Notes under the pieces: model-generated | The model's database searches: none | Seen by the model: the letters and a program-made list of their open reading frames with translations, nothing else | Told to the model about the DNA's origin: nothing | Shown: in pieces, positions 46,209-63,551 of the stretch | How positions within the stretch are numbered: position 1 is the stretch's first letter | Layout: every line of letters begins with the position of its first letter | Assembly: GCF_003967355.1 (NCBI RefSeq) | Contig: NZ_BIFH01000029.1 | Coordinates: forward strand, 124,001 to 188,000 | DNA: 64,000 bases | Direction: 5' to 3' | Source of the DNA: Embleya hyalina | GTDB lineage: Bacteria; Actinomycetota; Actinomycetes; Streptomycetales; Streptomycetaceae | Made by a program: the position numbers and the translations under genes

Positions 46209-46236
46209 ACCCCGACCGGCCCGCAGCGCGCACCGG

Positions 46237-46689: not shown

Positions 46690-46708
46690 GGCGCGACTCC
46701 CGGGGTTG

Positions 46709-46723: not shown

Positions 46724-46808
46724 ATCCAGTGGTGCCCGCACGCTAGCAACGACGGGCGCAATGATCCACCACCGCGTCGGGCGGAGAACCCCGCCGCTCG
46801 CCCCCGGC

Positions 46809-47606
46809 TCAGTCGGCGATCAGGTCGCCTTCGAGCACGGTGACCGCCGCGCCGGACAGCCGCACCCGGTCGCCGACCAACTCCACCCCGACCGTGCCGC
46901 CGCGCGCCGACAGCTGCCCGCCGGTCATCCGGCGGCGATCCAGACGCGGGGCCCAGTAGGGGCCGAGCACACAGTGCGCCGATCCGGTGACCGGGTCCTC
47001 GGCGACGCCGACCGACGGTGCGAACACCCGCGAGACGAAGTCGACCCGCCCCTCCCCCGCGGCGGTGACGATCACCGCCCGATACGGCAGCGTGGCCAGC
47101 GACTCCAGATCCGGCGCCACCGTACGCACCGCCGCCGCCGACGCCACCTCCACCAGCAGGTCGTCACCACCGGCGGCCACCAGGATCGGCTCCAGCCCGA
47201 GCGCCGCACCCAGTTCGGTCGGGATCGGCACCTCGCGCGGCGGCAGCGCCGGGAAGTCCAGAATGACGCCGGCGCTGTCGAGCGTCGCGGTCAGCACTCC
47301 GCTGCGGGTGGCGAAGCGGATCCGCGACGCCGGCGCCGACCCCTGCCCGAACAACACGTGCGCGGTGGCCAGCGTCGCGTGCCCGCACAGGTCCACCTCG
47401 GTCTGCGGGGTGAACCAGCGCAGCCCGAAGTCCGTCTCGCCGCCCGTGGCCGGCACCGCGAACGCGGTCTCCGAGTAGCCCAGTTCGGCCGCCACCGACT
47501 GCATCCAGGCGACGTCGTCGGCATGCGCCGCGTCGGGCAGGCACACCCCCGCCGGATTGCCCCGGAACGGCCGGTCGGTGAACGCGTCCACGACGTAAAT
47601 GCGCAT
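46809..47606 (-). CDS. PhzF-family isomerase/epimerase-like protein
   Basis: A 265-residue PhzF/DapF-fold protein. DAFTDRPFRGNPAGVCLP at the start, the catalytic Glu in ELGYSETAFAV, TEVDLCGHATLATAHVLF, and the C-terminal EDPVTGSAHCVLGPYWAPRL are all family marks. PhzF itself isomerises a phenazine precursor, but no phenazine genes are here; most genomic PhzF-like proteins have unknown substrates. The ATG at 47606 begins the typical MRIYVVDAFT. It ends a minus-strand stretch, with the vWA island next upstream. Confidence 0.9.
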   Translation of the reverse strand: MRIYVVDAFTDRPFRGNPAGVCLPDAAHADDVAWMQSVAAELGYSETAFAVPATGGETDFGLRWFTPQTEVDLCGHATLATAHVLFGQGSAPASRIRFATRSGVLTATLDSAGVILDFPALPPREVPIPTELGAALGLEPILVAAGGDDLLVEVASAAAVRTVAPDLESLATLPYRAVIVTAAGEGRVDFVSRVFAPSVGVAEDPVTGSAHCVLGPYWAPRLDRRRMTGGQLSARGGTVGVELVGDRVRLSGAAVTVLEGDLIAD

Positions 47607-47611
47607 GCCCC

Positions 47612-50600
47612 TCACCGTACCCAACGACGTCGAACACGTGGGCGTACCCAGGACCATCCGAACCACGTCACCCCCGCGACGGCGAGCGTGCCCAGGCCCG
47701 CGAGCAGCCACGGCCACCAGCTCACGTCCACCCGCTCGTCGCCTCGGTAGAGCAGTTCCTCGCCCGCGACGTCCGAGCGCGGCGCGAGCCGGGCGTCGGG
47801 GAGTTGCTCCTTGATCGTCTCGGCCAGCGGGCTGCGCACCTCCCCCACCACGCGCGCCCGCGCGTCGTAGTGACCGGCGTCCGCCCACATACCGTCGGTG
47901 CGATGGGTACGCGCGGCCAGATTGACCGAGAAGTACACCGGCTGCCCGGGAGCCAGCAGCGGCGCGCCGTCCTTGAGGCCGACCACCCCCACGCCGTCCA
48001 CCCGCAACCGGGTCACCTGGAGCGGCACCCGGGTGGTGTCGGCCACCAGGCGCAGGCACATCTCGCGCCCCGAGGACAGATCGAGTCGCCGGTCCGGCGG
48101 AACCGGCCGAAAGGCACGGCAGTCCACCGCGTCCGGCTGCTCCGGGGGCGGCATCAGCCAGGTCGCCCGCACACCCTTGTCCCGGTCCGCGTCGACGAAC
48201 CGGGCCGCGTGCCGCAGGTACAGCGCGGTCCGGGTCTGGGTCAGCGCGATGCCCGGGTCGGCCGGATCGTCGCGCAGCACCCGCGTGTTCGGCAACACCC
48301 GCTGCAGAGCCGGCCCCGCGCTGCTGTCACTGGCCAGCGGGACCGCGAACCCGGCCACCGCGCGGCCCTCCTCGCCGAGCCGGTCGAAGTCCTTGCGCAG
48401 GTCCGGGCCCACCGCGTCGCGGGCCGCGTCCGAGATCAGCACGACCCCGTTCACCGAGTCCGCCGTGGAGGTGCGCAACACCACCAGCGCCCGCTCCAGG
48501 GCCGCGTGCACATCGCTCGGCGCCTCGGCCCCGGCGGGCGGCGCGCCGGCCGCCGGGCTCCCGTCGGCCGGCTCGCTCGGGCGCGGGAGGGGCAGGCGCG
48601 CGGCCATCGCCGCCGGGTCGGTGACCGGTTCCAGGCCGTTGCCGTGCTCGGTCGCCACACCGTCGAAGGTGACCAGCGCGACCCGGTCGCGCGCGGACAG
48701 CCGGGCCAGGAACGCGGTCAGCGCGGACCTGGCCGCGGCATAGCGCCCGGTGCGCCGCATCGAGGCCGAGGCGTCCACCAGGATCACGTAGTTCACCCGC
48801 TCCCGGTCCGCGCCCAGGGTGGTGATCAGCCGCTCGGCGCCATAGGGGTCGGGCGGTTCGGTGGTCGCGGCCGCGGGCCGCGCGGCCGCGGCTCCGCCCG
48901 GCGGCACCGCGGCCAAGAGGGCGATCAGCGCGAGGATCGCCGGTATCGCCAGCACCCGCAGCGCGTCGCCGTGCTTGAGCGCGGCCCGCAACTGCTTCAG
49001 GTGGCGGCGGAACGTCTCGAACTCCTCCTGCTCGCGTTCGACGATCGACGACGCGGCGTCCGGCCCCCACGCGTGCGCGGCGATCGACAACCGGATCGCC
49101 CGCAGTTCCTCCCGGGCCTGCGCCGGGGTGCCGCCGCGCACGATCAACTCCCGTTCCAGGCTCGGCAGCAGCAGATCGCGTTCGCGATCGGGCGCGGCGT
49201 GCCACCAGCGGCCGACCTCGTGCACGTACAGATCGCGCCGCGGGCGGGCCGCGCCGTCCACGATCTCGCCCGCCCACACCCCGGCCGCCGCCCGCGCGTC
49301 CACCCCGCGCAGCGCGTTGCGGAACCAACCGCTCGCGGCGCGTCCGGCCAACTCCGGGCGGGCCCGGGCGATCGCCGCCCACCACGCGTCGTCCAGGCCG
49401 GGCAACTCGGCGAGCCGCGCGTCGGCGAGCACCGCGTCCGCGATCGCGGCGGTGACCGCCGGGTCGCCGGCGCGCACCAGCTCGCCGAGCAGTTCGGGGG
49501 TGACCGCCACCGCCCGCAACAGTGCCGCGATCCACCCGGCGAACCGCCCCTCGGCGACCGGCTCGTGGCGCAGCGCCAGCAGATCGGCCGCCACATAGGG
49601 CCCGTCCGTCGGCGCACCGCCGAGCGCCAGCCGCAGGACGTCGGCCCGCACCCGCGCGGCGACCGGTGCCCCGGAGCCCAGCGGCTTCTCCAGGAGCGCC
49701 GCCAGTCCGCGCGCGGCGGGGTCGGCGCGCCGCTCGGTGAGCGGGACCAGGGTCGGCCACAGGTCGTGCAGCACCGCGGCGATCGTGGCGGTGTCGGTGT
49801 GTCCGGCCACGCGCAGGGTGAACACCGCCTCGGCGGGCGGGATCTCCGCCGGTCGCAACCGTTCGCCCGCAAGCAGCGCGTACGGCGCCAGCCACTCCGG
49901 CGCCCGGTCGTCCCAGGGTCGGATCACCTCCAACCACGCGCCCAGGTCGCCGCCCGCGGTGTCCAGAAGGCGGCGCAGCACCACGGGATGGTTCCACAGC
50001 GCGTCGTAGAGCGCGGGCACCTCGGTGGTCGGAGTGGGCCCGAGCAGTCGGCACAGGTCGGCGACCAGCGCCTCCGGCGAGACCACGTCGGCGTCGGCCT
50101 TCGCCACGCCGTTGACCGAGGGTTCGGGCACCCGCACGGCCCGCACGTCCAGGCCGGCGGGCGGGGTGGAGCCGGCCAGGAGCGGCGGCACCGGGCCGAG
50201 CAGGACGTGCACGAGCCGATCCCCGCGCCCGGCCGCCACCGCCGTGTCCCAGCCCAGCGCCAGACTCGCCGGGCGGGCGCGCAGCGCGGCGGCCATGTCC
50301 CGGGTCACCTCGTCGCCGTCCTCCGCCCGCCAGCGCTCGGCGATCGGCGCGGCCAGTGCGACGTCGCCGCCGAGCAGCCGCTCCAGCGGCGACGGGGGCG
50401 ACGCCGGAGACGGGGGCGGCGGCGACGGGCGCGACGGGGCCGGGGGCGACGGGCGGGCCGGCGCCGGCCCCGCCTCGACGCCCGGCGCGCGCGAACTCGG
50501 CCCCACCGGGTCGCCGGCGGCGAATCGGGCGGCCGCACGGCCCGGTTCGGGCCCCGGGGCCGGCCCGACCCGCACGCCCGATCCGCCGCCGACCCCCGCC

Positions 50601-51439
50601 CCCGCGCCCGGTCCGGATCCGGCACCCGCCTCGGCTAGCAGCCCGAGCAGGCGGTCCCCCGCCACCGGTGTGCCCGCCTCGCGCAGCGTCGCGAGCGCGG
50701 CCACCAGCGGGTCGAGCCCGATGCGGCGGCGCAGCATGGTCAGTTCGCCCAGGTAGGCGCGGGCGGCGGGGAGGTCGGGCACGGCCGGCACGCCGTCCAG
50801 GGCGACCCGGACCGTCCCCGGCGTGGGCACCCGGCCGAAGGCGAGTCGGGGGCGCAGCCGGCCGGTGGGGCCGAGCGAGGTGGCGAAGCGCAGTCCGGCG
50901 CGGCAGCCGTACGGGAGCAACGCGGCGATCCGGTCCAGGAGTTCGAGCCGGGCCCGGCTGTCCAGGCGGTCGGCGCCGGTGATCACCACGGGGCCGGCCA
51001 GGACCGCCGCGGCGACCCCCGCGAGCCATTCGAAGTCGGCCGGGTGCGGCCCGACGGTCGGCGGCGGCCCCGGCAGCCGCACCCGAAGCGGCCGTTCCCG
51101 GTCGGTGGGCAGGTCGATTCCGCGAAAGGCCAGCCACAGCGCGGTGTACGTGGCGCCGGCGGCGGCGATCTCGGCGTAGGGCGCGGTGAAGTAGCGCACC
51201 CCCTCCGGATCGCGCAGCGTCATCGCGACGAACGAGTCCTCGCGCCCGGCGCCGGTCACCCCGACCCAGCCGGGCGGCGCGTACTCGTCCAGTGTGGGTC
51301 GCACCAACCGCTCGAAATGCTCCCGCCGTTCGGGTCCCGCGCTGCACGCCGGCACCGCGCCGTCGTGGTACCAGGCCCAATGCGCCCGCAAGGTGCCCGC
51401 GGTCTCGCGGGGGCGGTCGTGTCGGTCGGTCGCGTCCAC
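47612..51439 (-). CDS. Large GAP1-like / vWA membrane protein
   Basis: A 1,275-residue protein. The N-terminal region (about 1-270) has the pattern AGPVVITGADRLDSRARLELLDRI followed by ALLPYGCRAGLRFATS, resembling GTPase-associated protein 1 (GAP1) N-terminal domains. A Pro/Gly/Ala linker spans about 270-363. A long helical middle part (to about 825) lacks recognised domains. A membrane helix (LAIPAILALIALLAAV, about 830-846) leads to a vWA domain whose MIDAS starts at DASAS (about residue 888). A second helix near the C-terminus (PWLLAGLGTLAVAGVTWF) is followed by an Arg-rich end. Topology puts the vWA domain outside the cell. The GTG at 51439 has GGAAAGG upstream. Last gene of the island; probable partner of the GTPase two genes upstream. 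Confidence 0.8.
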   Translation of the reverse strand: MDATDRHDRPRETAGTLRAHWAWYHDGAVPACSAGPERREHFERLVRPTLDEYAPPGWVGVTGAGREDSFVAMTLRDPEGVRYFTAPYAEIAAAGATYTALWLAFRGIDLPTDRERPLRVRLPGPPPTVGPHPADFEWLAGVAAAVLAGPVVITGADRLDSRARLELLDRIAALLPYGCRAGLRFATSLGPTGRLRPRLAFGRVPTPGTVRVALDGVPAVPDLPAARAYLGELTMLRRRIGLDPLVAALATLREAGTPVAGDRLLGLLAEAGAGSGPGAGAGVGGGSGVRVGPAPGPEPGRAAARFAAGDPVGPSSRAPGVEAGPAPARPSPPAPSRPSPPPPSPASPPSPLERLLGGDVALAAPIAERWRAEDGDEVTRDMAAALRARPASLALGWDTAVAAGRGDRLVHVLLGPVPPLLAGSTPPAGLDVRAVRVPEPSVNGVAKADADVVSPEALVADLCRLLGPTPTTEVPALYDALWNHPVVLRRLLDTAGGDLGAWLEVIRPWDDRAPEWLAPYALLAGERLRPAEIPPAEAVFTLRVAGHTDTATIAAVLHDLWPTLVPLTERRADPAARGLAALLEKPLGSGAPVAARVRADVLRLALGGAPTDGPYVAADLLALRHEPVAEGRFAGWIAALLRAVAVTPELLGELVRAGDPAVTAAIADAVLADARLAELPGLDDAWWAAIARARPELAGRAASGWFRNALRGVDARAAAGVWAGEIVDGAARPRRDLYVHEVGRWWHAAPDRERDLLLPSLERELIVRGGTPAQAREELRAIRLSIAAHAWGPDAASSIVEREQEEFETFRRHLKQLRAALKHGDALRVLAIPAILALIALLAAVPPGGAAAARPAAATTEPPDPYGAERLITTLGADRERVNYVILVDASASMRRTGRYAAARSALTAFLARLSARDRVALVTFDGVATEHGNGLEPVTDPAAMAARLPLPRPSEPADGSPAAGAPPAGAEAPSDVHAALERALVVLRTSTADSVNGVVLISDAARDAVGPDLRKDFDRLGEEGRAVAGFAVPLASDSSAGPALQRVLPNTRVLRDDPADPGIALTQTRTALYLRHAARFVDADRDKGVRATWLMPPPEQPDAVDCRAFRPVPPDRRLDLSSGREMCLRLVADTTRVPLQVTRLRVDGVGVVGLKDGAPLLAPGQPVYFSVNLAARTHRTDGMWADAGHYDARARVVGEVRSPLAETIKEQLPDARLAPRSDVAGEELLYRGDERVDVSWWPWLLAGLGTLAVAGVTWFGWSWVRPRVRRRWVR

Positions 51440-51498
51440 GTGAACCTTTCCGTGCGGGATGCCGGTCGAGGTCGGGCCCGGTGCCCGCACACACGATG

Positions 51499-53328
51499 TC
51501 AGCGAGGCGGCCGGGGCGTCGGGGTCGGGGGGATCAATCCTGCCGGTGCTACCGGTGTGTGTTGTTCCCCGGGATCGGGCCGGGTGATCCCCGAGTACCG
51601 GCCGTTCTGCGCGGGAGCGTCGATCGGGGCCGGCTCCGCGGTGGTCGACGCCGGGTCGGCGCCGCCGGGCCGCGGTGTCGGCGGCCGGCGCAACACCCGG
51701 GCGCGGACGCCGTACAGCATGGTGGCGTCGTCCACGCTCAGCCGCCGTCGGGAGGTGTGGATGCGACCGTCCCGCTCGTGGCGCGCGGTCAACGTCACAC
51801 CGCGCCCGGAGCGCGGCCGGCGGCCCCGGGCCAGGAAGGACGTGATCGCGCCGGCCGCCGGATCGTGCTCGTGGGTCCAGCGGTGACGCATCCCCAGGGC
51901 CGGGTGTGCCGTGCTCTCGGGGAACTCCGATCGTTTCTCCTCCATGCTCAGTTCGATGTACACACCGGCCGGGAACCAGCGCCACGCCGCCGTTCCCCCC
52001 GCCGCGACCAGTGCCATCGCCGCAACCAGGAGCGCCCACACCGACCACATGACCGATCCGCGCACCCGGCCCGTGTAGGCCAGTCGGCCGTCGCGCAGGC
52101 CGGCGTCGGCGTACGGGCCCTCCACCCGCAGCAGATCGGCGAACTCGCCGGCCCGGGTGGCCGTCACGGTGCCCCGCACCGTCGTCGACGCGGCGTAGCT
52201 GCGCGACCGGGCGAACAGGTCGGAGCGGGTGCGCTCGTGCGCCCGCACCTCGATCGGGAAGTGTCGCGGCACCCCGGGTGCCAGGGTGATCGGGTCGCGC
52301 GGCAGCGCCCGATCGATCGCCGGATCGCCGGTGTGCAGGTCGGCGACGGTCAACCGGATGCGGTGCGCCGTGGAGACCAGGGTCAGGCAGAGCGTGCCGC
52401 GGGTGGACAGGTCGATCGGGTCGACCGGCGGCTCGACGCCGGCGCAGTCGGCTTCGGTGGGGCGGGCGCCGCGCGGGTGTGCGGGCGCCGGGGCGAACCG
52501 GGCCCGGACCGTCGCGTCCCGGTCCGCCCGCACCACCGCGGCCCCCTTGCGCACGCGCGCGTCCTGTTCGAGGGCGCGCACCCGGGCCGCCTGCTCGGCG
52601 ACCGAGCCGCTGAGCGTCTCGGCCCTGGGCAACACCTTCGCGATCAGGTTGACGCCGCGCCCGTTGTCGCCGAGCGGCATCGCGTACGCGGAGATCGGGC
52701 CGTGTTCGGCGACCGCCTTCGCGTACTCCAGGCGCAACGCCTCCCACCCCGGCGCCGATTCGTCGGCGAAGCGCGGGTTGTTCGGCGCGTACAGGTCGGC
52801 GTCGGTGAGCACCACGATCACGGTGGGCGGCCGATATCCGTCCGCCGACGGGTGGGCCGCGGCGACGATCCCGGACACCGACACCATCGCCGCGCCGAAG
52901 TCGCTCTCCACGTCGTTCGGCTTGGGCAACCCCGCGAGGAACGCGGAGACCGCGGCCTCGCCCCGGGGCGCCGCGTCCAGTGGCCGAAAGACGGTGGTGG
53001 TCGCGCCGAATCGGATCACCGAGATCCGGTCCCGGGGCTGCATCGCGGTCAACAGGGTGCGCAGCGCCGTCTTCGCCTCGTCGTAGCCGCCGTTCTCCCG
53101 CATCGACGTCGACACGTCGAGCACCATGTAGAAGTCGGCCGGCTGGGCGTCGGCGCCCAACTCGTCCAGCAGTCGTGCGGTCGCGTCGGCGGGCGGTTCC
53201 CCGTCGGCCCGGCCGACGCCGTGCGCCGGGGACGCGGACGCGCACAGTGCCAGGATCAGCAGCAACACGGGGACCACGAGCCGGGCCCGGGCCCGGGGCC
53301 GGTGGGGGTTCGGGGCGATTCGGGACAT
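51499..53328 (-). CDS. Exported membrane-anchored vWA-domain protein
   Basis: A 609-residue protein. The signal peptide is about residues 15-36 (LVVPVLLLILALCASASPAHG). The vWA domain follows with MIDAS Asp71 in LDVSTSM and a later VIVVLTDADLYAP. An uncharacterised beta-rich region reaches a membrane helix at about 430-450 (WSVWALLVAAMALVAAGGTAAW). The cytoplasmic tail of about 155 residues includes a Pro-rich end. The vWA domain is therefore extracytoplasmic with an internal tail that could contact the GTPase or AAA+ proteins. The start is 3 bases after the GTPase stop. It shares its design, but little sequence, with the downstream vWA protein. Confidence 0.85.
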   Translation of the reverse strand: MSRIAPNPHRPRARARLVVPVLLLILALCASASPAHGVGRADGEPPADATARLLDELGADAQPADFYMVLDVSTSMRENGGYDEAKTALRTLLTAMQPRDRISVIRFGATTTVFRPLDAAPRGEAAVSAFLAGLPKPNDVESDFGAAMVSVSGIVAAAHPSADGYRPPTVIVVLTDADLYAPNNPRFADESAPGWEALRLEYAKAVAEHGPISAYAMPLGDNGRGVNLIAKVLPRAETLSGSVAEQAARVRALEQDARVRKGAAVVRADRDATVRARFAPAPAHPRGARPTEADCAGVEPPVDPIDLSTRGTLCLTLVSTAHRIRLTVADLHTGDPAIDRALPRDPITLAPGVPRHFPIEVRAHERTRSDLFARSRSYAASTTVRGTVTATRAGEFADLLRVEGPYADAGLRDGRLAYTGRVRGSVMWSVWALLVAAMALVAAGGTAAWRWFPAGVYIELSMEEKRSEFPESTAHPALGMRHRWTHEHDPAAGAITSFLARGRRPRSGRGVTLTARHERDGRIHTSRRRLSVDDATMLYGVRARVLRRPPTPRPGGADPASTTAEPAPIDAPAQNGRYSGITRPDPGEQHTPVAPAGLIPPTPTPRPPR

Positions 53329-53331
53329 CGG

Positions 53332-54303
53332 TCATCCCCTCTTCGCGATGCGCACCGCGCGCATGCCGAGAATGGGTTCCAGCACACCCTGGGGGTGGGG
53401 CGGTCCGTCGAGGCGGTTCCCGTGCGGGTCGACGTTGCGGCAACTCTCCGGGTCGATCCGGCCCGCAGAGCGGCGAAAGCCCGCCGCCGAGGTCGCGTAG
53501 TAGCGGATCCGGCCGAAACGCCGCTCCAGGATGCCCGGCAATTCGGCGGCGGCCCGGTTCGGGCAGGGCCCGTCGCGCTCGCACAACCGGCGGAAGTACG
53601 CCTCGGGGTCGCGCACCCGGACCCGGCCGTCGCGGCCCAACTCGGCCCAGGCACCCAGGCGGGCCTCCCGATACAGCGTCATGTCGTCGATCTTGGTGAC
53701 GCACACGGCCGGTTCGAAGGGCAACAGGCCGCGGGGGTCGGTGCGCGGTTGGAGGTCGGCGGCGGCTTCGGTGAGCAGGCGCTCCAGCGCGCGTACCGCG
53801 TCCTCGCCCGCGCCGCTCGCGTCGGTGGGATCGAACAGCACGATCAGGCCAGTGCAGTCGGCCAGGGTCCGCTTGACCGCGTCGCGCCGGGTGCTCGGGT
53901 CCGGCAACTCGGTGATCGTGGCCACGAATCGGGAGTGGTCGGTGAGCCGGTGCAGCGACGCGACGCGCGGGTCGCGCCGGAAGAGGAAGCGGTATCGCGT
54001 CGGCTCGGCGGTATCGCGCGTGTCGGGCCCGCCCGGGAACCGGTGTTCGCGCAGCAGCGCGTCGTCGGTGTGCCGAAGGAAGCGCTGGGTGGCGTCGTCC
54101 GTTCCGAACACCTTCCACCGGGGCGGGTGGTCTCGGCCGGTGCCGCCGTGCCCGAGTCCGCGTGCGCGCTCCTCGGCGGCCTCGGGGACCATCGCGACGA
54201 ACGTGGTGCGGCCCGATCCCGGCGCGCCCCACAGGGCAATCCGCTTCTCCAGGACCGCGCCGCCGGTCGGCTCGCCGTCCCCGATCCCGTACGGCCGCGT
54301 CAT
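53332..54303 (-). CDS. P-loop GTPase-like protein with altered Walker A (Lys to Arg)
   Basis: A 323-residue protein with a P-loop near the N-terminus, RIALWGAPGSGRTTF (residues 21-35). The consensus GxxxxGK[S/T] Lys is Arg32 (codon CGC). Other GTPase landmarks: TELPDPS as a switch-like region, DCTGLIVLFDPTD, and TKID (CVTKIDDM, about residue 200), the guanine-specificity motif. This resembles the GTPases that accompany GAP1-type proteins, and a GAP1-like protein lies two genes downstream. Its ATG overlaps the stop of the zinc-ribbon gene (ATGA). Loss of the Lys may slow hydrolysis or make the switch nucleotide-binding only. Confidence 0.75.
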   Translation of the reverse strand: MTRPYGIGDGEPTGGAVLEKRIALWGAPGSGRTTFVAMVPEAAEERARGLGHGGTGRDHPPRWKVFGTDDATQRFLRHTDDALLREHRFPGGPDTRDTAEPTRYRFLFRRDPRVASLHRLTDHSRFVATITELPDPSTRRDAVKRTLADCTGLIVLFDPTDASGAGEDAVRALERLLTEAAADLQPRTDPRGLLPFEPAVCVTKIDDMTLYREARLGAWAELGRDGRVRVRDPEAYFRRLCERDGPCPNRAAAELPGILERRFGRIRYYATSAAGFRRSAGRIDPESCRNVDPHGNRLDGPPHPQGVLEPILGMRAVRIAKRG

Positions 54304-56267
54304 CGGCGCACCCCTTTCCCGCCCGACTCGGCGGCCGACGGCCCGGTGTTCACGTCGAGCAGCAGCGGCGCGCCGGTGGTGCCCGTCAGCGCGGCGTGGC
54401 CGAACCGCAGCAGGTCGGCGGGCGTGGTGCGGTCGAGTGTGAAACACCCGTCGGCGCCCAGCAGTCGCCACGCCTTCAGGGTGCGATCGTGCACCCGGGG
54501 GTCCGCCGCGCCCGGGTACCCGGGGTCGTCGGTCACCAGCAGGTGGCGATCGCCCGGCCGGGCCGCCCGTCGGGCCGTCAGGTCCGCGTCCCATCGGCCG
54601 CCGCCGTACGCCTGCGCCGGGTCGAGGCCCTGCACATAGGGGTGCGGGCCGCGCAGGCCGACGGTCACCACGAGGGTGTGCCGACTCGTCCGCCGACCGA
54701 GCGGGTCGGTGCGCAGCAGCGCGCACACCCGCTCCAGAGGTGCGGCGTACGGGTCCACCGCGGGTGTCCCGACCCAGTCGGCGATCGCCGCCCGCGTCGT
54801 GTCGGGCGGGGCGAAGTCGACCCGGCGCAGCGGGTCGTGACGGCTGCGCCGGGGACGGGGGTGGTCGTCGTAGCCGAGCACGGCGGCCTGCTCCCAGCGT
54901 GTCGACCGGTCCGCGCGGGCCGCCTCGGCGAGCAGCGCGCGGACGAGGGCGAGCCGGGCGGCGGTCTGTTCGGGGGTGCCGCCCAACTCGACCACGCAGA
55001 GGAGGTCGTGGGCGGTCGGCGGGGCCGGCTGCCAGAAGGGACGGGGCAGCGCGGCGACGGTGGTCGGCCGCCCCGCCGGCCGAACGTCGGTTCGACCGGC
55101 CCCCAGCACCCAGGCGGCCCCGCCGGAGGGGGTGATGTCCACCCGTCCCGGCCCGATCATCCGCACGGTGAGCCGGACTTCGCCGGGCGGCGCGAACACG
55201 GTGATCCGTTCCAGTTCGGACCACTCGGCGGGGTCGGCCGTGTCGGCGACCGCCACCGCGACGTCGTGCCCGTCCGGGCCTTCGCCGCGCAGGCCGAGGG
55301 TGATCTCGGCGAGCGGGGGGCCGTCGGCCGCACCCGGCGTCGCGCCTCGATCGAGGAGCACGGTCGGGTGGTCCCGGGTCGCGTCCCCCGGTCCCGGGTC
55401 GACGCCGACCAGGTGGAGCGGGTGGCGGGCGGGCACGTCGAGGGCCAACAGTTCGATCAGGGCGGGGAGTTCGATGCTCTCGTCCTCGAGGCAACCGCCG
55501 CCGAGCACGGCGGCCGGCGGCAACTGCTCCCGCACCACCTCGGTCGCGAGCGCGCACCAGGCCCACGCCGGGCGGCGTTCCACCAGCACCAGGGCCCAGG
55601 CCCGCTCCCAGGGGTGGTCCGGCAGCGCGCGCCAGCCGCTCGTGTCGGCCCAGTTCCTCCGCAACGTCGACCGGGCCCGGGCGGCCAGCGCCTCGGGAGC
55701 CTCGGCCGTGCCCACGGCGGGTCGTCGACCCACCCCGCCGGCCAGGGTCAGGTCACGGGCCGCGTCGTCCTCGGGCAGCCAGGGCACCACCTCGCGCCAG
55801 TCGTGGCGGGTCCGGTTGGCCGAGGGCGCGCTGACGAAGCCGCGTTCGTCGAGCGTCACCCACTGCGCGGCCAGGTACCGGGTCCCGATGTCCACGAACA
55901 GCACCAGGTCCAGTTCGCCGGCGGTCAGCGCGGTGAGCAGGGTGAGCGCCGCGGCCCGTCCGGTCCCCGGGACCGGTTCGACGGCGGCCGACGGAGCCTC
56001 GACGACCACCGGGCCGAACCTGACCAGATCGGCCAGCGCACGGGGCACCTCGGTCAACCCGCGCGCCGACGCCACCCGGAGCACCGCCGCGTGATCGAAG
56101 GCCCGCGCGGCGTCCCGGTAGGCGGTGGGCCCGGGATCGGCCGGCGGCCACGCGCAGGTCCGGCAAGCGCCCACGACCGGAGCCGGACCCCAGCAGACGG
56201 GGCACACCGCCTCCGGGAGCGAGTACTCGTCGCCCGGCGCGCGCGGACCCGTCGACGCCGTGCTCAC
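54300..56267 (-). CDS. Zinc-ribbon protein of the vWA/GTPase island
   Basis: A 655-residue cytoplasmic protein of unknown family. The N-terminus carries a Cys4 zinc ribbon (C22, C25, C35, C38 in CPVCWGPAPVVGACRTC). The next region contains ELDLVLFVDIGTRYLAAQWVTLD, a central beta-rich part (VRLTVRMIGPGRVDITPSGGAAWVLG), and a C-terminal alpha/beta part (TLVVTVGLRGPHPYV, HLLVTDDPGYPG). No signal peptide or helix. GTG start; its ribosome site is weak. First gene of the downstream transcription unit of the island, with a sigma-70-like promoter about 160 bases upstream, and translationally coupled to the GTPase gene. A regulatory or adaptor role is an inference only. Confidence 0.7.
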   Translation of the reverse strand: MSTASTGPRAPGDEYSLPEAVCPVCWGPAPVVGACRTCAWPPADPGPTAYRDAARAFDHAAVLRVASARGLTEVPRALADLVRFGPVVVEAPSAAVEPVPGTGRAAALTLLTALTAGELDLVLFVDIGTRYLAAQWVTLDERGFVSAPSANRTRHDWREVVPWLPEDDAARDLTLAGGVGRRPAVGTAEAPEALAARARSTLRRNWADTSGWRALPDHPWERAWALVLVERRPAWAWCALATEVVREQLPPAAVLGGGCLEDESIELPALIELLALDVPARHPLHLVGVDPGPGDATRDHPTVLLDRGATPGAADGPPLAEITLGLRGEGPDGHDVAVAVADTADPAEWSELERITVFAPPGEVRLTVRMIGPGRVDITPSGGAAWVLGAGRTDVRPAGRPTTVAALPRPFWQPAPPTAHDLLCVVELGGTPEQTAARLALVRALLAEAARADRSTRWEQAAVLGYDDHPRPRRSRHDPLRRVDFAPPDTTRAAIADWVGTPAVDPYAAPLERVCALLRTDPLGRRTSRHTLVVTVGLRGPHPYVQGLDPAQAYGGGRWDADLTARRAARPGDRHLLVTDDPGYPGAADPRVHDRTLKAWRLLGADGCFTLDRTTPADLLRFGHAALTGTTGAPLLLDVNTGPSAAESGGKGVRR

Positions 56268-56429
56268 CGGTCACCGGCCCGTCGCTGAACTCCCGGCACG
56301 AATCCCCCCGTTCGTCCCTTCCGGAGCGCCCCGCCGACGCCTCACCGGTCGTGGAGCCCCGGGTGCGTCGACACCGCGGGTCGACGAACGACCCTGCGCG
56401 CGGTGACGACCACTTACCCGCAGTGGCCG

Positions 56430-56458
56430 ATCGTAGTCCCGCGCATGGCCGAGTCGAA
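56430..56458 (-). promoter_or_regulatory. Sigma-70-like promoter of the GTPase/vWA unit
   Basis: Reading on the minus strand, TTCGAC (56458-56453) and TACGAT (56435-56430) are separated by exactly 17 bases, a good HrdB-type promoter. Expected transcription start is near 56423, giving a leader of about 155 bases before the GTG at 56267. It splits the island into two transcription units. Confidence 0.5.
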
Positions 56459-56512
56459 GCGTTTCCCATGGGTTGTGATCAGTCGTCCGCCGGCCCGTGA
56501 TCCGACCGATGG

Positions 56513-59224
56513 TCAGTCGACCACCACCGGTCCTTCCAGCGACGTCACCGTGCCGTCGAGCCCGGCGAGGATCAGTCGCCCCCGCGCGGCGACCGCCACG
56601 GACACCCCCACCTCGGAACGGATTTCGGCCAGCCGACGACCGGTGGCCAGGTCGTAGGTACGGATGCCCCCGGCCGCGCCGGCCACATGGACCAGCCCGT
56701 CCGCCAGGGTCACCCGCAGCCCGGGTTGCGGCACGTCGACGGTGCGCCATGCCCGACGTCCCGACTCGGCGTCGAACGCGTGCAGGAGACCGTCGGTGCT
56801 CACCGCCACCACCGACCCGGCGCCGATCCCGGGCGTGCTCAACACCCCGCCCGGCAGTCGCGCCCGCCAGGCGATCCCTCCATCGGCCCAGCGCAGCGCC
56901 GCGATCCCGGCGGTGGCGAGCGGGACGTACACGTGCCGTTCGTCGGCCACCGGGGCGGCGTGCACGGCTTCGGACAAGTCCCGCGACCACGAGGCGAATT
57001 CCGAGCGCGCACGCCACGCCCTGGCCCGGCCCGCCCGATCCACCACCGCGGTCCGATCCCCCGAGACACACAGTCCGGCCGGTATGCCCGAGCCCGTCCC
57101 CGCGAGCTCCGTCGTGGCGTTCGCGCCGTCGAGCCACACGACGCGGCCGTCCAGAGTGACGACGAACAGCCCGTCCGCACCGACCGGCCCCGGCACCAGC
57201 GCCACCACGGCGGCGGTGCCGACCCGCACCACCGCGTCCGGCGCGGACCTCCTCGTCGGGTCGTACCGATAGAGCCCACCGTCGTCGTGCCCCGCCCACA
57301 CCCGCCCCGACGCCACCACCGGCGCACACCGCGACGGCGTGCCCGGGTGAACCGTCCATCGAGCCATCCCCGTCAGCGGATCGAGGACCATCAGCGTCCC
57401 CGCCACGTCCTGCACCACGATCAGCCCGTCCGTGACCACCGGCCGTGCCCGGATCCAGTGGCCCATCCGCGCGGTCCACGCCCGGGTCAGCTCGCGCCGG
57501 CGCAACATCGGACCGTTCGCCCGGGCCTCCAGGCGTCGGGCCCGGGGCCGGTAGTCGGGTCCGAGGCGATCCAGCAGCGTCGCGCCGACCCGGGCGAGCG
57601 GGCGGCTGTGCGGGCCCAGCAGGCCGACCGCGGCGGGCTCGCGCGCGGTGAGCAGGTCCCGGAAGTCGAACTCGGCGTGGCCGTTGCGCTCGTGCAGGAA
57701 GTCGGCGACCCGGAAGTACACCTCCAGGGCCGACCGTCGGCTCATCGCGGTCAGCAACGTCTCCCGGACCTGCTCGTCCAGGTCGTACACGACGTCGTCC
57801 GGTCGCGCCGCCTCGTCCCGGTCCGGCGACTCGACCAGCAGGCCGCTCAGCATCACCTCGGCGGCGAACGCGGGGTCCTCCTGCGCGAGTACCGCCGATT
57901 GCACGACGCGCATCGTGGCCGGGCTGATCGGCGCGGCGGCGAGTTTCCCGAGCAGTTCGACGGCGTCCGGGGAGGCGCCGGCGCGGAATTCGGCGAGCCG
58001 TACCGCAGGTGTGCGCCGGTCCTCGGCCGGCACCGGGGTCGGCGCGGGCCCGGCCGCCGGCCCGCGCGGATCGAGCACCCACGCGGGGCCGGCGAACTCG
58101 CGACCACGCTCGTCGGTGATCATCCGGGCCCAGCGGGAGAGTTCGCTCCACCGACCGGCTCGGCGATCGGCCGGGTCGTCCGCCCACAGGCCCTCGGGGT
58201 GCAGGCCGATCAGCGGGACGGCGACCCGCTCGGGCGGGCCCGTCCAGCGGGTGGTGTGCCGGATCCGAAAGGCCGATCGGCGGGCGGCGCCCGCGCCTCG
58301 GCTGCGGAAGACCACCGGGGTGGACGGGATCCGCGCGCGATCCCACCAACGTTTGGGCAGCAGGTTCAGCAGCACCACGGGACACTGCTTCGCCCACGAG
58401 GCGAGCATGGCCGAGGTCTGCGGGTGGGACCAGGCGCGGCCGACCCCGTCGGTGATCACCATGATGATCCGCCGTCCGGTGGGGCCGACCGGTGCGGCGG
58501 GTTGGGCCGGGGTGCCGAACGGTGTGCGCAGTACCGCACGGCCGGGTACGTCGGTGTCGAGGGACCAGGAACGCACCGCGCGAAACGTGCCGTTCCCGCC
58601 CACGAGTCGGGTGAACTCGGCGAGCAATCGTCGCCACGGGGCGATCGAGGGCGCGGTGTCCACGACGAGGGCGAGTTCGAACCAGCGTTCCCGGGCCGGG
58701 TCGAGCACCGGCACGATCAGGTCGGTCAGCGCCGCGTGTTCCGCGGTGGCCTCCTCGTCCAGGACCACCGCGTCGGGCGCGGCGCCGTGGTGGCGCAACC
58801 TGCGCAGCAGGCCGGCGAGTTCGAGCCGGTCGGGCAGGACCGAGGCGGCCGGCGGCCGGGCCTCGCCGAGCCATGCGGGCAGGCGCGGTGCGGCCGTGCC
58901 CGCCGGGCCGGCGCCGATCCGCTCGATCGACTCGACGGAGTCGGGCACGGCGGTGAAGGCGAGGGAGGTCTCCGGGCGGGGGCCGCGCACCGCCGGCGGC
59001 GGGCGGCGCGCGATCGGCGCGGGCGGGGACTCCGGTCCGGCCGGGGGCTCCGGTCCGGGCGGGACCGGCGGCGCGGGCCCGGGAGCCGGGGGCGCCGGGC
59101 CGGCCGGTGCCGCGGTGTCGGCCGCCGCACCGGGCGGGCTGGCTCTCGTACCGATCACGGCGTTCAACCACGCCCAGTCCAGGACCGCGTCGACGGTGAC
59201 CCCGGCGGGGTCCTCCTCCGCCAT
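56513..59224 (-). CDS. SAV_2336-type vWA-like protein with C-terminal beta-propeller
   Basis: A 903-residue protein. A short N-terminal segment (VTVDAVLDWAWLNAVIG) and a long Pro/Gly/Ala linker (about 25-100) precede a vWA-like domain starting ELALVVDTAPSIAPW (about 188), where the MIDAS is only partly preserved (DTAPS). The core RIIMVITDGVGRAWSHPQT and PVVLLNLLPKRWWDR matches SAV_2336 N-terminal-domain proteins of streptomycetes. A helical part follows, then from about 580 a PQQ-like beta-propeller with repeated VVTDGLIVVQDVAGTLMVLD and LVHVAGAAGGIRTYDLATG blades. ATG 3 bases after the MoxR stop. Likely the vWA partner of the MoxR ATPase, with the propeller as a ligand or protein sensor. Confidence 0.82.
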   Translation of the reverse strand: MAEEDPAGVTVDAVLDWAWLNAVIGTRASPPGAAADTAAPAGPAPPAPGPAPPVPPGPEPPAGPESPPAPIARRPPPAVRGPRPETSLAFTAVPDSVESIERIGAGPAGTAAPRLPAWLGEARPPAASVLPDRLELAGLLRRLRHHGAAPDAVVLDEEATAEHAALTDLIVPVLDPARERWFELALVVDTAPSIAPWRRLLAEFTRLVGGNGTFRAVRSWSLDTDVPGRAVLRTPFGTPAQPAAPVGPTGRRIIMVITDGVGRAWSHPQTSAMLASWAKQCPVVLLNLLPKRWWDRARIPSTPVVFRSRGAGAARRSAFRIRHTTRWTGPPERVAVPLIGLHPEGLWADDPADRRAGRWSELSRWARMITDERGREFAGPAWVLDPRGPAAGPAPTPVPAEDRRTPAVRLAEFRAGASPDAVELLGKLAAAPISPATMRVVQSAVLAQEDPAFAAEVMLSGLLVESPDRDEAARPDDVVYDLDEQVRETLLTAMSRRSALEVYFRVADFLHERNGHAEFDFRDLLTAREPAAVGLLGPHSRPLARVGATLLDRLGPDYRPRARRLEARANGPMLRRRELTRAWTARMGHWIRARPVVTDGLIVVQDVAGTLMVLDPLTGMARWTVHPGTPSRCAPVVASGRVWAGHDDGGLYRYDPTRRSAPDAVVRVGTAAVVALVPGPVGADGLFVVTLDGRVVWLDGANATTELAGTGSGIPAGLCVSGDRTAVVDRAGRARAWRARSEFASWSRDLSEAVHAAPVADERHVYVPLATAGIAALRWADGGIAWRARLPGGVLSTPGIGAGSVVAVSTDGLLHAFDAESGRRAWRTVDVPQPGLRVTLADGLVHVAGAAGGIRTYDLATGRRLAEIRSEVGVSVAVAARGRLILAGLDGTVTSLEGPVVVD

Positions 59225-59227
59225 CGC

Positions 59228-60325
59228 TCATCCCCCGTCCAGGTCGTGGAACAGGAGGGTGGCCAGTGTGTCGTTGGTGGGCAGGTGGTCGGCGGGCTCG
59301 ACGCGCTCCCGGATCCGGTCGCGGAACTGCATCGCGTTGAGCAGTTGGTCCGGGGAGAGCAGCGGCCCGTCGACGCCGTTCGCCAACTCCAGGTAGTGGT
59401 CGAGCAACGACTCGTCGAGGGGCACTCCCTCGGGCAGTCGGCTGCGCACGATGCGCTTGAGCACGTCGCGGTCCGGCGCGCGCAGTTCCAGCGGCACGCA
59501 GCGCCGCCGAAACGCGGCCGGGAAGGCGCGTTCGCCGTTGCTGGTGAGGATGACGATCGGGAACGCGGCGCAGCGCACGGTGCCGTCGCGCACCTCGACC
59601 CGGTCGCCGAAGTCGCCGTCGTACGGTGTCACCCGCGCGCTGCGCAGCCGGGCCCGGCGCAGTTCGGGGATCTCGAAGCCGCCGGTCTCGAATACGTGCA
59701 GCAGGTCGTTGGGCAGGTCGACGTCGCTCTTGTCGATCTCGTCGATCAGCAGCACCCTCGGGTGCGGGCGGCGCAGCAGCGCGTCGCCGAGCGGGCCGAG
59801 GGTGATGTAGGCGCCGATGTCGTCGACGTCGGCGCCGACCGGGCCCGCCGCGCCCTTGGCGCGCAGGTTCATGTCGTGCAGGCGGGCCAGCACGTCGTAC
59901 CCGTACAGCCCCTCGCGCAGGGTGGAGCGGCTGGTGATGCCCCAGTGCAGCACGGGGCCCAGCCGCAGCCGGGTCGCGATGCTGCGGGCCAGGGTGGTCT
60001 TGCCGGTGCCGGGGCGGCCGGTGACCAGGAGCGGCCGGCGCAGATAGATCGCGGCGTTGACGAGGTCGTAGACGTGGCGGGTGCCGTGGAACTCGCCCGA
60101 GTACGGCTCGCCGGCGCGTTCGCCGGGCAGCGCGGCGGGCGCCGGCACGTGGTCCCCGACGTCGTCGGTGCCGAACAGCCGCCACGGCGGCGGAGTCGGG
60201 AGTTCGACCGGGCCGGTCCCGGCGGGGGTCCCGGTCGCGCCGCCGTCGCCGCGGTAGATCCACCACGGCGCGGCGGGCTCCCCCGTGTCGTGGTCCCCGA
60301 CGGTGCCCGTCGTGGCCTGGCTCAT
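59228..60325 (-). CDS. MoxR-family AAA+ ATPase
   Basis: A 365-residue AAA+ ATPase. Walker A GRPGTGKTT (residues 103-111), Walker B VLLIDEIDKSD (191-201), sensor 1 in PIVILTSNGERAFP and the arginine-finger region AFRRRCVPLEL are intact. The first about 80 residues are a Gly/Pro-rich extension ending in PWRLFGTDDVGDHVPAP. MoxR ATPases remodel vWA-protein complexes, and vWA-type genes follow. Its ATG overlaps the stop of the caspase-like gene (ATGA), and the SAV_2336-type gene follows after 3 bases. All NTPase residues are present, so it should be the energy source of the module. Confidence 0.92.
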   Translation of the reverse strand: MSQATTGTVGDHDTGEPAAPWWIYRGDGGATGTPAGTGPVELPTPPPWRLFGTDDVGDHVPAPAALPGERAGEPYSGEFHGTRHVYDLVNAAIYLRRPLLVTGRPGTGKTTLARSIATRLRLGPVLHWGITSRSTLREGLYGYDVLARLHDMNLRAKGAAGPVGADVDDIGAYITLGPLGDALLRRPHPRVLLIDEIDKSDVDLPNDLLHVFETGGFEIPELRRARLRSARVTPYDGDFGDRVEVRDGTVRCAAFPIVILTSNGERAFPAAFRRRCVPLELRAPDRDVLKRIVRSRLPEGVPLDESLLDHYLELANGVDGPLLSPDQLLNAMQFRDRIRERVEPADHLPTNDTLATLLFHDLDGG

Positions 60326-62334
60326 CGCCCGTCCCCCCTGCCCTCCGGGGCGCCGCGCAGCAGTCCCGCCCCCTGCCACGGACGCCAACCGGGATCGTCG
60401 AACAACAGCACGACCCGCTCCGGCGGCGTGGCCCTGCGCCCCAGGGTGCGCCGCAGGAGGGTCACGGCGGAAGGCAATTGGGTCAGGTTTCGGTTCTTTC
60501 GCTCCAGCATCCGGTACAGGTCCCGCCCCACCGCGGCACCGGAGCAGCCGCCGTGCGCGCCGTTCGTGCCGGCGCACGCGTCGGTACAGGTGGTCCCGTG
60601 CGTCCATACCAGGGCCCAGTCGCCGCGGCCGACCGCGGTCTCGACCGTGCCGGGGCGGCCGGGTCGGTACTCCCACCGGTAGTCCTGGAGGAAGCCGACG
60701 GCCTCGTCGTCGCAGTCGTGCCCGCCGCCGCCGCACAGGTGCCGATTCAGGTGCCGCACCGCCGGGTTGGCGCGCAGGTTCGCGGATGCGGCCCAGGTGT
60801 CGTAGTGCATCGGCCGGGCCACGCCGTGCCGCACGATCGGCCGCAGCACCACCTCGTGGTGTTCGCCGAGCACGATGTGGTCGTCGGCGCCGCCGATCCG
60901 GACCGCCTCGAAGGGCTCGTTGAACAGCTCGGTCGGCAGCACCAGTTGCACCCGGGCCTTGGCCAGCGAGGTCCAGCCGGTGCGGATCGTGAGGTAGAAG
61001 TCGGCGAGGTGGTCGTCGAGTCGCTCCCGGGGCAGGCCGTTGCCCGAGGGCAGGCCCGGGGGTGCCTCGAAACGTTCGAGGCCGACGTAGAACCGCGGTT
61101 CGGCGTCGTAGCGCACCCGGCCCGGCCGGTCGGGCGAGTGTTCGTTCTCCCGAATGAACACCACGAGCGTCAGCGGCTGCCGTTCGCGCACCTCGGTCGG
61201 GCGGAACGCGTCGATGTGTCCGGCTTCGCGCAACTGCTCGGCCCATTCGGCGACATGCGTCTGGTGGCATCCGGTGTACAGCCACTCCAGCAGGTGGCGG
61301 ATCGGATGCCGGCCCGGCGGCCCCGGCAGCGACATCAGCGCCTCTCCCCAGGCGAGGAGGTCGGCGCCGGCGAAGACCCACTCGGGCACGCCCCGTTCGC
61401 GCAGGTAGGTGCGCAGCACGGCGGGTTCGCCCGCGCCGATCTCCAGGTCGGCGAGAAGCGCGAGCAGGCGGTGTCGGTACAGGCCGAACTGGTTCTCGGG
61501 ATCGCGCTCGCCCTCGCGCCAGTCGGCGGCGCCGGGGCCGCGATACATCGGTGACTGGCGCAGCGGCCGGCCCCCGGGGCCGCTCGCCGCGAGTCGGGCG
61601 TCGATCTCGTCGAACATCTCGCGAAAGGCCGGCACGGTCAGCGCGTCCGGCCCCCGCAGGGTCAGGTGTTCGATCAGCGCCGTGGTGAACGCGGGCCGCT
61701 GCGCCGGGCGGTAGGCGAACTGGCCGTCGTCGGCGGCGAAGACGGCGGAGATCCGGGCCTTGGCCGACTTGTCGCCCGGGCCGGGCGCGGTCAGGTTCAG
61801 CGCGATGGCCCCGGACCCACCCCGGCGGTCGGCGCAGGTCTCGAAGACCAGGAACTGGTCGACCCGGCGCGGCACCTCGCCGCATCGGGCCAGGAGTTCG
61901 TCGACGCCGATCTCCCGGACCGAGAGCCGGGAGTCGCCCGCCAGGTGGAACGCGGGCAACTCCAGCCACCGCCCACGCGCGTCCAGCCGGCCGTGGCCGG
62001 TCCAGTGCAGCAGGAACCGGTCGCCGTCCCGCCAGTTCTCCCCGAGCCCGCCGATCACCCGCTCGAAGTCGACGTGTTGCAGCTCACCGGGGCCGGCCCC
62101 CGGCCCGACCAGGATCGAATCCGCCGCGATCAGCTCGCGCAGCCGCTCGGCGGTCGGCTTCGACGCGGCCCGCACCGACGCGAGCACGGTGATCCGCTCG
62201 GCACCGGCGGCGCCGCTCGTGTGCAGCCACTCGACCAGTTCCAGGGTCTGCGCGAGCGCGCCCGGCAGATCCCCCGGCCCGTGCTCGTGCGCCGGATAGT
62301 GCTCGACGCAGACGAACAGGGCGTGCACCGTCAC
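60322..62334 (-). CDS. Caspase-like VMAP-family protein
   Basis: A 670-residue protein. The N-terminal domain (about 1-260) looks like a caspase/CHAT-type peptidase: HALFVCVEHYPA with DLPGALAQTLELVEWL, the catalytic His in LLHWTGHG (His114) and the catalytic Cys in FLVFETCADR (Cys167). A helical region (about 285-380) could be an effector-associated adaptor. The C-terminal part (about 390-640, RQPLTLVVFIRENEHSP, IVLGEHHEVVLRPIVRH, ALVWTHGTTCTDACAG) resembles the vWA-MoxR-associated protein (VMAP) C-terminal domain. VMAP systems are a computationally described class of conflict systems pairing VMAP, MoxR and vWA proteins with peptidase effectors. GTG start inside the hydrolase stop (GTGA overlap). 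Confidence 0.78.
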   Translation of the reverse strand: MTVHALFVCVEHYPAHEHGPGDLPGALAQTLELVEWLHTSGAAGAERITVLASVRAASKPTAERLRELIAADSILVGPGAGPGELQHVDFERVIGGLGENWRDGDRFLLHWTGHGRLDARGRWLELPAFHLAGDSRLSVREIGVDELLARCGEVPRRVDQFLVFETCADRRGGSGAIALNLTAPGPGDKSAKARISAVFAADDGQFAYRPAQRPAFTTALIEHLTLRGPDALTVPAFREMFDEIDARLAASGPGGRPLRQSPMYRGPGAADWREGERDPENQFGLYRHRLLALLADLEIGAGEPAVLRTYLRERGVPEWVFAGADLLAWGEALMSLPGPPGRHPIRHLLEWLYTGCHQTHVAEWAEQLREAGHIDAFRPTEVRERQPLTLVVFIRENEHSPDRPGRVRYDAEPRFYVGLERFEAPPGLPSGNGLPRERLDDHLADFYLTIRTGWTSLAKARVQLVLPTELFNEPFEAVRIGGADDHIVLGEHHEVVLRPIVRHGVARPMHYDTWAASANLRANPAVRHLNRHLCGGGGHDCDDEAVGFLQDYRWEYRPGRPGTVETAVGRGDWALVWTHGTTCTDACAGTNGAHGGCSGAAVGRDLYRMLERKNRNLTQLPSAVTLLRRTLGRRATPPERVVLLFDDPGWRPWQGAGLLRGAPEGRGDGR

Positions 62335-63551
62335 CGAGCGCCCTCCACCGCGCGCACGATCTCGTCGTAGAGCTCCGGGCAGCGCCAGTAGGCGCCGTGG
62401 GACCGGGGGAAGGGTCGGCGCACCCGGATCTCGACGTCGCGCACCGCGGCCCCGAAGACCGGCGCGGCGCGGAACGACAACCAGTCGCGGGCGTTCCACA
62501 CGTTGGTCCACGGAATCGGCAACCGGCTCGGCGGGTCCGCCTGCGCCGGGTGGGTCGCGAGCGCGCCGACCGCGCCGAGGTAGCCGATCTGCGAGCCGAC
62601 GGTGATCAGCGCCCGCACGCCCGGGAGCGGATGGCGCCGCCGCTCGGGGATGTCCGGTCCGGCCGTCTCGACCAGCGTCTCGAACGAGGCGATCCCGCCC
62701 AGGGAGTGCGCGAGCAGCACCACGGGCCCCTCGATCCGGGCGATCCGCGCCGCGAGGTAGGCGCGCAGCGTCGCGCCGTGCGCCTGGTAGTGGAGGATGT
62801 CGCCGATCGCGGGCACGCTGCCGCCCAGGGTGCCGCCGCGCAGCGTGTTCTGCAGCGGCCAACTCGCGTACATCAGGCCGCTCTTGAAGGTCCGGCCGAC
62901 CCAGGTGCCGCCGGCGGTGGTGCCGCCGCACGCGTCGCGCACGGCGGCGACGAGGGTGTCGCGCCACTCCGGCGACCACGCGCTCGGCGCCCCGGGCCGG
63001 GCGGCGAGTGCCTGCTCGAAGCCGGCCACCACGGCCCGGCCGATCACGTCGTAGTCGGCACCGGCGGCCAACGCCTCGACCGCGCCGGTGAATTCGGCCG
63101 AGTCGGCGACGTCCCGCGCCGCCGCGGCGAAGACGTCCGGCCACTCGGGCGGCGCGCCGGGCAACACCGCGGCGAGGTCGATCCCGACCACGTCGTGCTC
63201 CACCGCCCAGCGCAGGTCCTCGGCCGCCTCGGTCCGCCGCCCGCCGGGCGCCGCTCCCGCGGCCACTTCGAGCAGTTCGTGGCGGGGGTGTCGTTCCAAC
63301 ACCGCCCACAACCGCAGTTCGGCCTCCTCGGGGTCGACCTCGGCGGCCGGTCCGTGCTCGGCGGGGTCGGCGATCCCGATCAGCGCACGCAGTTCGGGCG
63401 AGACCTCGACGCCGAACGCCGCGCCCCAGTCCACCGGTTCCACCCGCACCCCCGGCAGCCGCGCGGCGACCCTGGCGGTGATGGTGCGGACCGCGGCCGA
63501 GTCGGTCACGTCGCGCACGCCGGTTCCGTGCACGAAGACGAGCGTGGTCAT
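62331..63551 (-). CDS. Alpha/beta hydrolase of the VMAP operon
   Basis: A 406-residue hydrolase, first gene of the operon. Oxyanion motif FVHGTGV at the N-terminus; nucleophile Ser in VVLLAHSLGGIASFE (about residue 285); likely catalytic His in FPRSHGAYW near 385; Asp candidate in NVWNARDWLSF. A helical insert (about 55-230) separates the first strand from the nucleophile elbow. No signal peptide, so it acts in the cytoplasm on lipids, esters or modified proteins. Tight coupling (GTGA) to the caspase-like gene suggests it is part of the same effector module. The ATG begins directly with the first beta-strand. Confidence 0.85.
   Translation of the reverse strand: MTTLVFVHGTGVRDVTDSAAVRTITARVAARLPGVRVEPVDWGAAFGVEVSPELRALIGIADPAEHGPAAEVDPEEAELRLWAVLERHPRHELLEVAAGAAPGGRRTEAAEDLRWAVEHDVVGIDLAAVLPGAPPEWPDVFAAAARDVADSAEFTGAVEALAAGADYDVIGRAVVAGFEQALAARPGAPSAWSPEWRDTLVAAVRDACGGTTAGGTWVGRTFKSGLMYASWPLQNTLRGGTLGGSVPAIGDILHYQAHGATLRAYLAARIARIEGPVVLLAHSLGGIASFETLVETAGPDIPERRRHPLPGVRALITVGSQIGYLGAVGALATHPAQADPPSRLPIPWTNVWNARDWLSFRAAPVFGAAVRDVEIRVRRPFPRSHGAYWRCPELYDEIVRAVEGAR

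Follow-up and report, generated by a model that had tools for sequence, protein, structure and literature searches.

Can a GTPase-like protein with arginine at the usual lysine position of its P-loop still hydrolyze GTP normally, or has it become a pseudo-GTPase? This question is raised by an open reading frame in the 64-kb stretch of DNA analyzed here (the window). The ORF (54303–53332, minus strand) encodes a protein of 323 amino acids with the N-terminus MTRPYGIGDGEPTGGAVLEKRIALWGAPGSGRTTFVAM, and its ATG overlaps the stop codon of the upstream gene (ATGA). The replacement of the P-loop lysine by Arg32 (CGC) in GAPGSGRTT, reported in a first-pass annotation, was confirmed in this ORF. The features of the gene are listed below; the names G1–G5 were assigned to the motifs following general usage for GTPases.

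53332..54303, minus strand: GTPase-like protein with an Arg P-loop and a TRAFAC-type fold, ATG start, 323 aa
54202..54228, minus strand: G1/P-loop GAPGSGRTT, residues 26–34 (WGAPGSGRTT in context)
54208..54210, minus strand: codon CGC of Arg32, at the usual Lys position of the P-loop
53899..53910, minus strand: degenerate G3 ELPD, residues 132–135 (DxxG in relatives), with the loop after G3 deleted
53686..53697, minus strand: G4 TKID, residues 203–206, conserved

A single copy of the protein was found in the genome of the window (G000) at E ≤ 1. Matches to the GTPase were present in 12 of 199 related genomes (four genus members included), 31 of 394 genomes of the class, and 17 of 394 genomes of the family; a phylum-wide search with the protein of locus L043 as the query gave matches in 3 of 396 genomes. 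From 105 ORFs above the profile threshold, two fragments having no P-loop (L093 and L036) were excluded, and the resulting 103 were reduced to 83 rows at 95% identity, 77 with Lys and 6 with Arg. Eight further members of the window's family, added later and all having Lys, extended this set to 91 non-redundant rows; this is a sample (at least 91), larger groups having been sampled in the group searches. The P-loop lysine, described earlier as nearly invariant, is indeed so: Lys was found in 85 of the 91 rows and Arg in 6. One of the Lys rows, L020, was scored by an odd GRAKTT stretch, possibly reflecting a frameshift.

GRTT is shared by the window's genome and the other genus members that the search found, G001, G002, and G003, whose proteins have 53%, 91%, and 48% identity, respectively, to that of the window. 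The arginine codon is CGC in G000, G002, and G003 and CGG in G001. The first-pass annotation had proposed an alignment of homologues to check the conservation of Arg, which proved to be common to all four genus members found; the case that it had set against its own proposal, a sequencing error here with uniformly Lys-bearing homologues, is excluded by the presence of Arg in four genomes via two codons. Judged from these sequences, Arg32 is a lineage-fixed change in the window's genus. The two other Arg rows are L027 of genome G356 (codon AGG), which belongs to the same class as the window and to family f19, and L089 of a Saccharothrix MAG (codon CGG). Arg is not fixed in the genus of G356: of its five genomes three gave a match, and Lys stands in the rows of the two besides G356 as well as in a second copy of G356 itself. 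A canonical DO-GTPase2 with GKT and TKSD, above the Pfam cut-off, is encoded on another contig of the window's genome (L099/L118, G000:C39); a change in every such GTPase of this genome is ruled out by this protein.

A quick maximum-likelihood tree was constructed from 81 rows after removing the P-loop and G3 trait columns. The window's genus formed a single clade (SH-aLRT 100, branch length 1.49). Arg needs three changes at most on this tree, and the well-supported branches force one only.

The P-loop is not the only changed motif of the protein. Of 84 readable Lys rows, 82 have an intact DxxG, as does one of six Arg rows (Fisher p 2.8e-6 on rows, which are related and uncorrected for kinship); an independent-pairs test of this link on the tree had no power, with at most three pairs. 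In the Arg rows, G3 reads ELPD in the window and L002, ELPT in L003, DLPD in L004, EPPG in L027, and DRPG, which is intact, in L089. The loop following G3 is deleted throughout the window's genus, and the G3 Asp is replaced by Glu in three of its four members, Asp being kept in L004. Since L089 combines Arg with an intact DRPG, Arg does not require the loss of G3, and the strict rule that Arg always accompanies a broken G3 was ruled out. L089:9839-10651 is a short Arg-type relative with the stretch from the P-loop to G3 shorter than in other relatives. A broken G3 was also noted in two Lys rows, L030 (EAPG) and L019 (deleted), which may represent further pseudo-GTPases.

The last position of the FPxAT motif, possibly G2, was compared by an ungapped count, the alignment being unsure here because of the longer loop of the window protein. 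Among the Lys rows, it is occupied by Thr in 62, Ser in 16, Asn in 4, and Gly in 1 (2 unreadable), which gives Thr or Ser in 78 of 83 readable rows. The Arg rows have Pro, Pro, Ser, Arg, and Gln (one unreadable); thus, among five readable ones Thr occurs in none and Ser in one. At the same time, G31, T33, T34, K204, D206, and S272 of the G5 region are kept in all six Arg rows, and the preservation of K204, D206, and S272 fits retained guanine binding. Thirty positions, Arg32 included, do not vary among the four genus members and are rare elsewhere, a weak sign with two of the four sequences 91% alike; the basic residues among them, sought as substitutes for Lys32, are K20, R227, R289, and R315.

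Structures were predicted by AlphaFold2, confidently in both cases, for two proteins, the window GTPase (mean pLDDT 86.3, pTM 0.87) and its Lys relative L043 of Streptomyces sp. PR69 (mean pLDDT 89.4, pTM 0.88). E132 closes strand 125–132 in the window model, and D104 closes strand 95–104 in the L043 model. The best VIA-align match of the window model was YcjX 6nz6_A (Z 14.2, rmsd 4.7, 258 aligned), and the L043 model was closest to YcjX 6nz4_B (Z 13.9, rmsd 3.9, 249 aligned); Arf/Arl, Rab, Rag-like, and elongation-factor chains ranked below YcjX. YcjX (PDB 6nz4, 6nz5, 6nz6) is the nearest solved fold; however, identity in the structural alignment is 14–15%, the likeness concerns the fold alone, and Arf/Arl is close behind (Z 13.5). 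The model gives the window protein a TRAFAC-type GTPase fold that is not degraded as a whole. The earlier statement that TKID and the rest of the fold look intact therefore stands for TKID, which is kept, and for the predicted fold, but not for G3, which is broken (ELPD, loop deleted).

The loss of catalytic motifs within a GTPase fold, which marks a pseudo-GTPase, was found in the window protein (motifs and AlphaFold2 model). The first-pass annotation suggested a slow or pseudo-GTPase switch with Arg in an otherwise intact active site. The latter does not hold, but since both Lys32 and G3 are changed in the four genus members, the pseudo-GTPase proposal is more strongly supported than it was there; the change of Lys to Arg by itself would not prove loss of hydrolysis. 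The guanine pocket is probably kept, with hydrolysis and the gamma-phosphate switch lost, and the protein probably holds the nucleotide without normal switch use. Arg32 could still hold phosphates.

The protein might instead be a true, if atypical, GTPase in which Arg32 contacts the beta and gamma phosphates, the function of G3 is supplied in trans by another residue or by a partner such as the GAP1-position protein described below, and cycling is slow. The nucleotide-binding residues kept in all six Arg rows, a dN/dS below 1, the up to three Arg lineages, suggesting that Arg is tolerated, and the coexistence of Arg and DxxG in L089 agree with such an enzyme. However, the Gly of DxxG and the following loop are gone in the genus, Asp has turned to Glu in three of four members, and the Thr of FPxAT is absent from the readable Arg rows (Ser in one); we regard this explanation as rather unlikely.

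The gene lies in a run of eight closely packed genes that occupies 63551–47612 of the minus strand. The order is alpha/beta-hydrolase-like, VMAP, MoxR, SAV_2336-PQQ, 655-aa, GTPase-like, vWA, and GAP1-position/vWA; the first six intergenic gaps in this order are -4, -4, 3, 245, -4, and 3 bases, and the seventh is 59 if the last gene starts at GTG 51439. The neighbors of the GTPase-like gene are as follows.

62331..63551, minus strand: alpha/beta-hydrolase-like protein, first gene (sub-threshold Ser_hydrolase match, E 0.074; 4-base overlap with VMAP)
60322..62334, minus strand: VMAP with an N-terminal caspase-like region (VMAP-M19 3.6e-76, VMAP-C 1.8e-20)
59228..60325, minus strand: MoxR-type AAA+ ATPase (AAA_5 2.8e-7)
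56513..59224, minus strand: SAV_2336_NTERM protein with a C-terminal PQQ beta-propeller (NF041121 2.8e-89, PQQ_2 4.6e-23)
54300..56267, minus strand: 655-aa protein directly upstream of the GTPase (no Pfam match at E ≤ 1; 4-base overlap with the GTPase start)
51499..53328, minus strand: vWA-domain protein (VWA_2 1.6e-9)
47612..51439, minus strand: protein with a GAP1-position N-terminal half and a C-terminal vWA (VWA_2 1.6e-7; start uncertain, GTG 51439 one candidate)

In the VMAP protein, VMAP-M19 is preceded by two motifs of caspase-like type, HWTGHG with the His and FETC with the Cys; Pfam matched no caspase domain here, and the other caspase matches were sub-threshold (PADLOC E 0.042). The SAV_2336_NTERM protein adjoins MoxR and has no Pfam vWA; two other vWA proteins are present in the run. 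Residues about 142–250 of the GAP1-position protein match proteins encoded just downstream of Lys GTPases, three of eight of which, when tested, gave sub-cut-off matches to GAP1-M (E 0.02–0.09). The GAP1-position protein itself gave no Pfam hit to GAP1 at E ≤ 1, and naming this neighbor GAP1 was rejected, the Pfam matches being sub-cut-off. No second GTPase of this family was found in the 64-kb window; there is one each in the window and in L114–L116.

G001, G002, and G003 have the run with its gene order unchanged over the length of the stretches compared. Four related clusters, those of L043 and L080 (Streptomyces) and of G047 and G117 (the window's own family), contain a SAV_2336 protein by MoxR with a fused Lys GTPase and, in addition, a standalone Lys GTPase. 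In L043, L080, and G117, the gene directly upstream of the standalone Lys GTPase encodes a homologue of the 655-aa protein; none was matched in G047. A protein kinase with a PQQ propeller is encoded between the two GTPases in L043 and G047; the latter cluster further includes VMAP-M18 carrying a caspase domain. The window's genus has a PQQ propeller at the C-terminus of its SAV_2336 protein, in the place of the fused Lys GTPase, and retains only the standalone GTPase, with Arg. On a simple reading, we infer that this arrangement arose by a deletion running from the fused GTPase across the kinase domain. However, the genus clade groups closely with neither Streptomyces GTPase type on the tree; therefore, orthology rests on position.

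Linkage to SAV_2336 was read from coordinates in 51 related loci (some with short flanks) and further fetched stretches; relatives with flanks of about 1.5 kb were excluded, and L051, lying at a contig end, was left outside the paired/solitary count. With SAV_2336 within about 10 kb, paired GTPases are Lys/Lys in 4 of 4 cases and solitary ones have Arg in 5 of 5, four of these from one genus plus G356. The Arg GTPase of G356 (L117:5265-10787) is the C-terminus of a 1841-aa SAV_2336/WD40/AAA protein, with nSTAND-like and CbbX-like AAA regions, adjoining a trypsin-VMAP; no other GTPase of the family was found in the 20-kb stretch. Three solitary Lys GTPases may be counter-examples to the idea of partner loss: L065 has MoxR and SAV_2336 about 10–11 kb off, and L071 and L078 have a weak (31%) MoxR-like match 3–5 kb off and no SAV_2336 match.

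The loss of the partner could also have been followed by neutral decay, with relaxed selection and the motifs disappearing with no new function gained. For the GTPase gene, the window's genome gives dN/dS values of 0.53 against G002, 0.65 against G001, and 0.66 against G003, high within the operon, and the branch to the genus clade is long, as expected for decay. In the comparison with G002 the gene ranks at the top of the eight genes, with G001 it is below only a 42-codon hydrolase piece, and with G003 it is exceeded by the vWA protein (0.87); for MoxR the genus pairs give 0.27–0.41. However, the GTPase value is below 1 in all three pairs despite its high rank, and against decay stand an ORF intact and in place in four genus members, the remaining residues of G1 (except for the Lys), G4, and the G5 region, and, more weakly, the thirty genus-invariant positions. 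Neutral decay is thus improbable. A sequencing or assembly error at the Arg32 codon, for which nothing was found in favor, is ruled out for practical purposes by the four genomes with Arg, one of them by a different codon.

The nearest described systems are those of DO-GTPases, TRAFAC GTPases with GAP1 predicted to act as a GTP switch; according to passages of Kaur et al. 2020 (PMC7159879), two paralogous GTPase copies occur in 38% of these systems and are not required. Matches to PF19993 at E ≤ 0.1 were obtained for 17 of 23 members of our family scanned (best 6.9e-6), the window protein being among the 23 and unmatched, and matches to PF19975 for 11 of 23. The window protein had no match to PF19993 and nothing in NCBIfam at E ≤ 1. 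In the genome-wide search with PF19993 the family members are listed below the curated cut-off, and at E ≤ 1 this profile also matched in 14 of 14 control genomes (above the cut-off in one); weak matches mean little alone. As its kinship rests on sub-cut-off profile matches, we call the family DO-GTPase-like. It shares with DO-GTPases (PF19993) the TRAFAC-type fold, the GAP1-position and vWA neighbors, and two copies in the four related clusters; the TRAFAC fold and a G4 of the [TN]KxD kind were found in the window protein by model and sequence. Unlike DO-GTPases, the window protein has GAPGSGRTT in place of the P-loop GxxxxGK[ST] and ELPD with a deleted loop in place of G3 DxxG (Walker B), has no second copy in the window, and is encoded in one run with MoxR and VMAP. 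Arg-P-loop or inactive DO-GTPases are not mentioned in the retrieved passages of PMC7159879, and the terms 'inactive GTPase' and 'pseudo-GTPase' were absent on a text search of that paper; no other paper on such an Arg-P-loop protein was found among the matches listed (titles and abstract starts; DO-GTPase/GAP1 and pseudo-GTPase/P-loop).

The window also resembles the VMAP ternary systems (MoxR-vWA-VMAP), as described in passages of PMC7159879, by VMAP-M19, VMAP-C, SAV_2336, the caspase-like region, and MoxR, whose N-terminal region has WWIYRG and PPWRLF, in agreement with the motifs WxhapG and PsWRxa given in that paper. In the same passages, the core pairs MoxR-vWA and DO-GTPase-GAP1 are stated not to be exchanged. 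In contrast, the window and G047 have both kinds in one cluster, which contradicts that statement if the kinship to DO-GTPases holds. As to a side observation, the MoxR, VMAP, and caspase-like genes and the DO-GTPase-like/GAP1-position module form one run at 47612–63551, and the arrangement in G047 is similar.

Taken together, the window protein quite probably descends from a DO-GTPase-like TRAFAC GTPase and has become a pseudo-GTPase, fixed in its lineage, that serves a MoxR-VMAP-vWA conflict-type operon. A guanine nucleotide would still be taken up via G4/G5 and the P-loop backbone, the gamma phosphate would go unsensed, and GTP would not be hydrolyzed normally. Hence the protein would act as a nucleotide-stabilized or empty scaffold between the 655-aa and GAP1-position/vWA proteins, and the MoxR ATPase and caspase-like VMAP would do the switching; the need for a GTP cycle may have ended when the partner GTPase was lost. 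The pseudo-GTPase described in passages of PMC10211241, a GTPase fold that binds GTP without hydrolysis and serves as an interaction module, is a working analogy with no sequence kinship, its nucleotide state being measured and that of the window protein inferred. A broader generalization, possible but on the doubtful side, is that double-GTPase conflict systems become free of GTP hydrolysis when one GTPase is lost, the survivor turning into a nucleotide-locked subunit with an Arg P-loop, perhaps more than once, and control passing to MoxR in a hybrid VMAP and DO-GTPase-like operon.

The G3 loss, the finding that the genus members share the changes, and the absence of the partner GTPase are additions to what had been noted for this locus. 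DO-GTPase conflict systems have been predicted from sequence, and many of them carry two GTPases. Paired members with catalytic motifs and a solitary lineage devoid of them would make the roles of hydrolysis and pairing testable by comparing two homologous operons, and VMAP and DO-GTPase-like modules in one cluster bear on how such systems are assembled.

Downstream of the run, at 45260–47720, the window encodes proteins that, from their sequences, resemble a LysR regulator, a glyoxalase-type protein, and a PhzF-type protein. A homologue of the PhzF-type gene also follows the cluster in G001 and G002.
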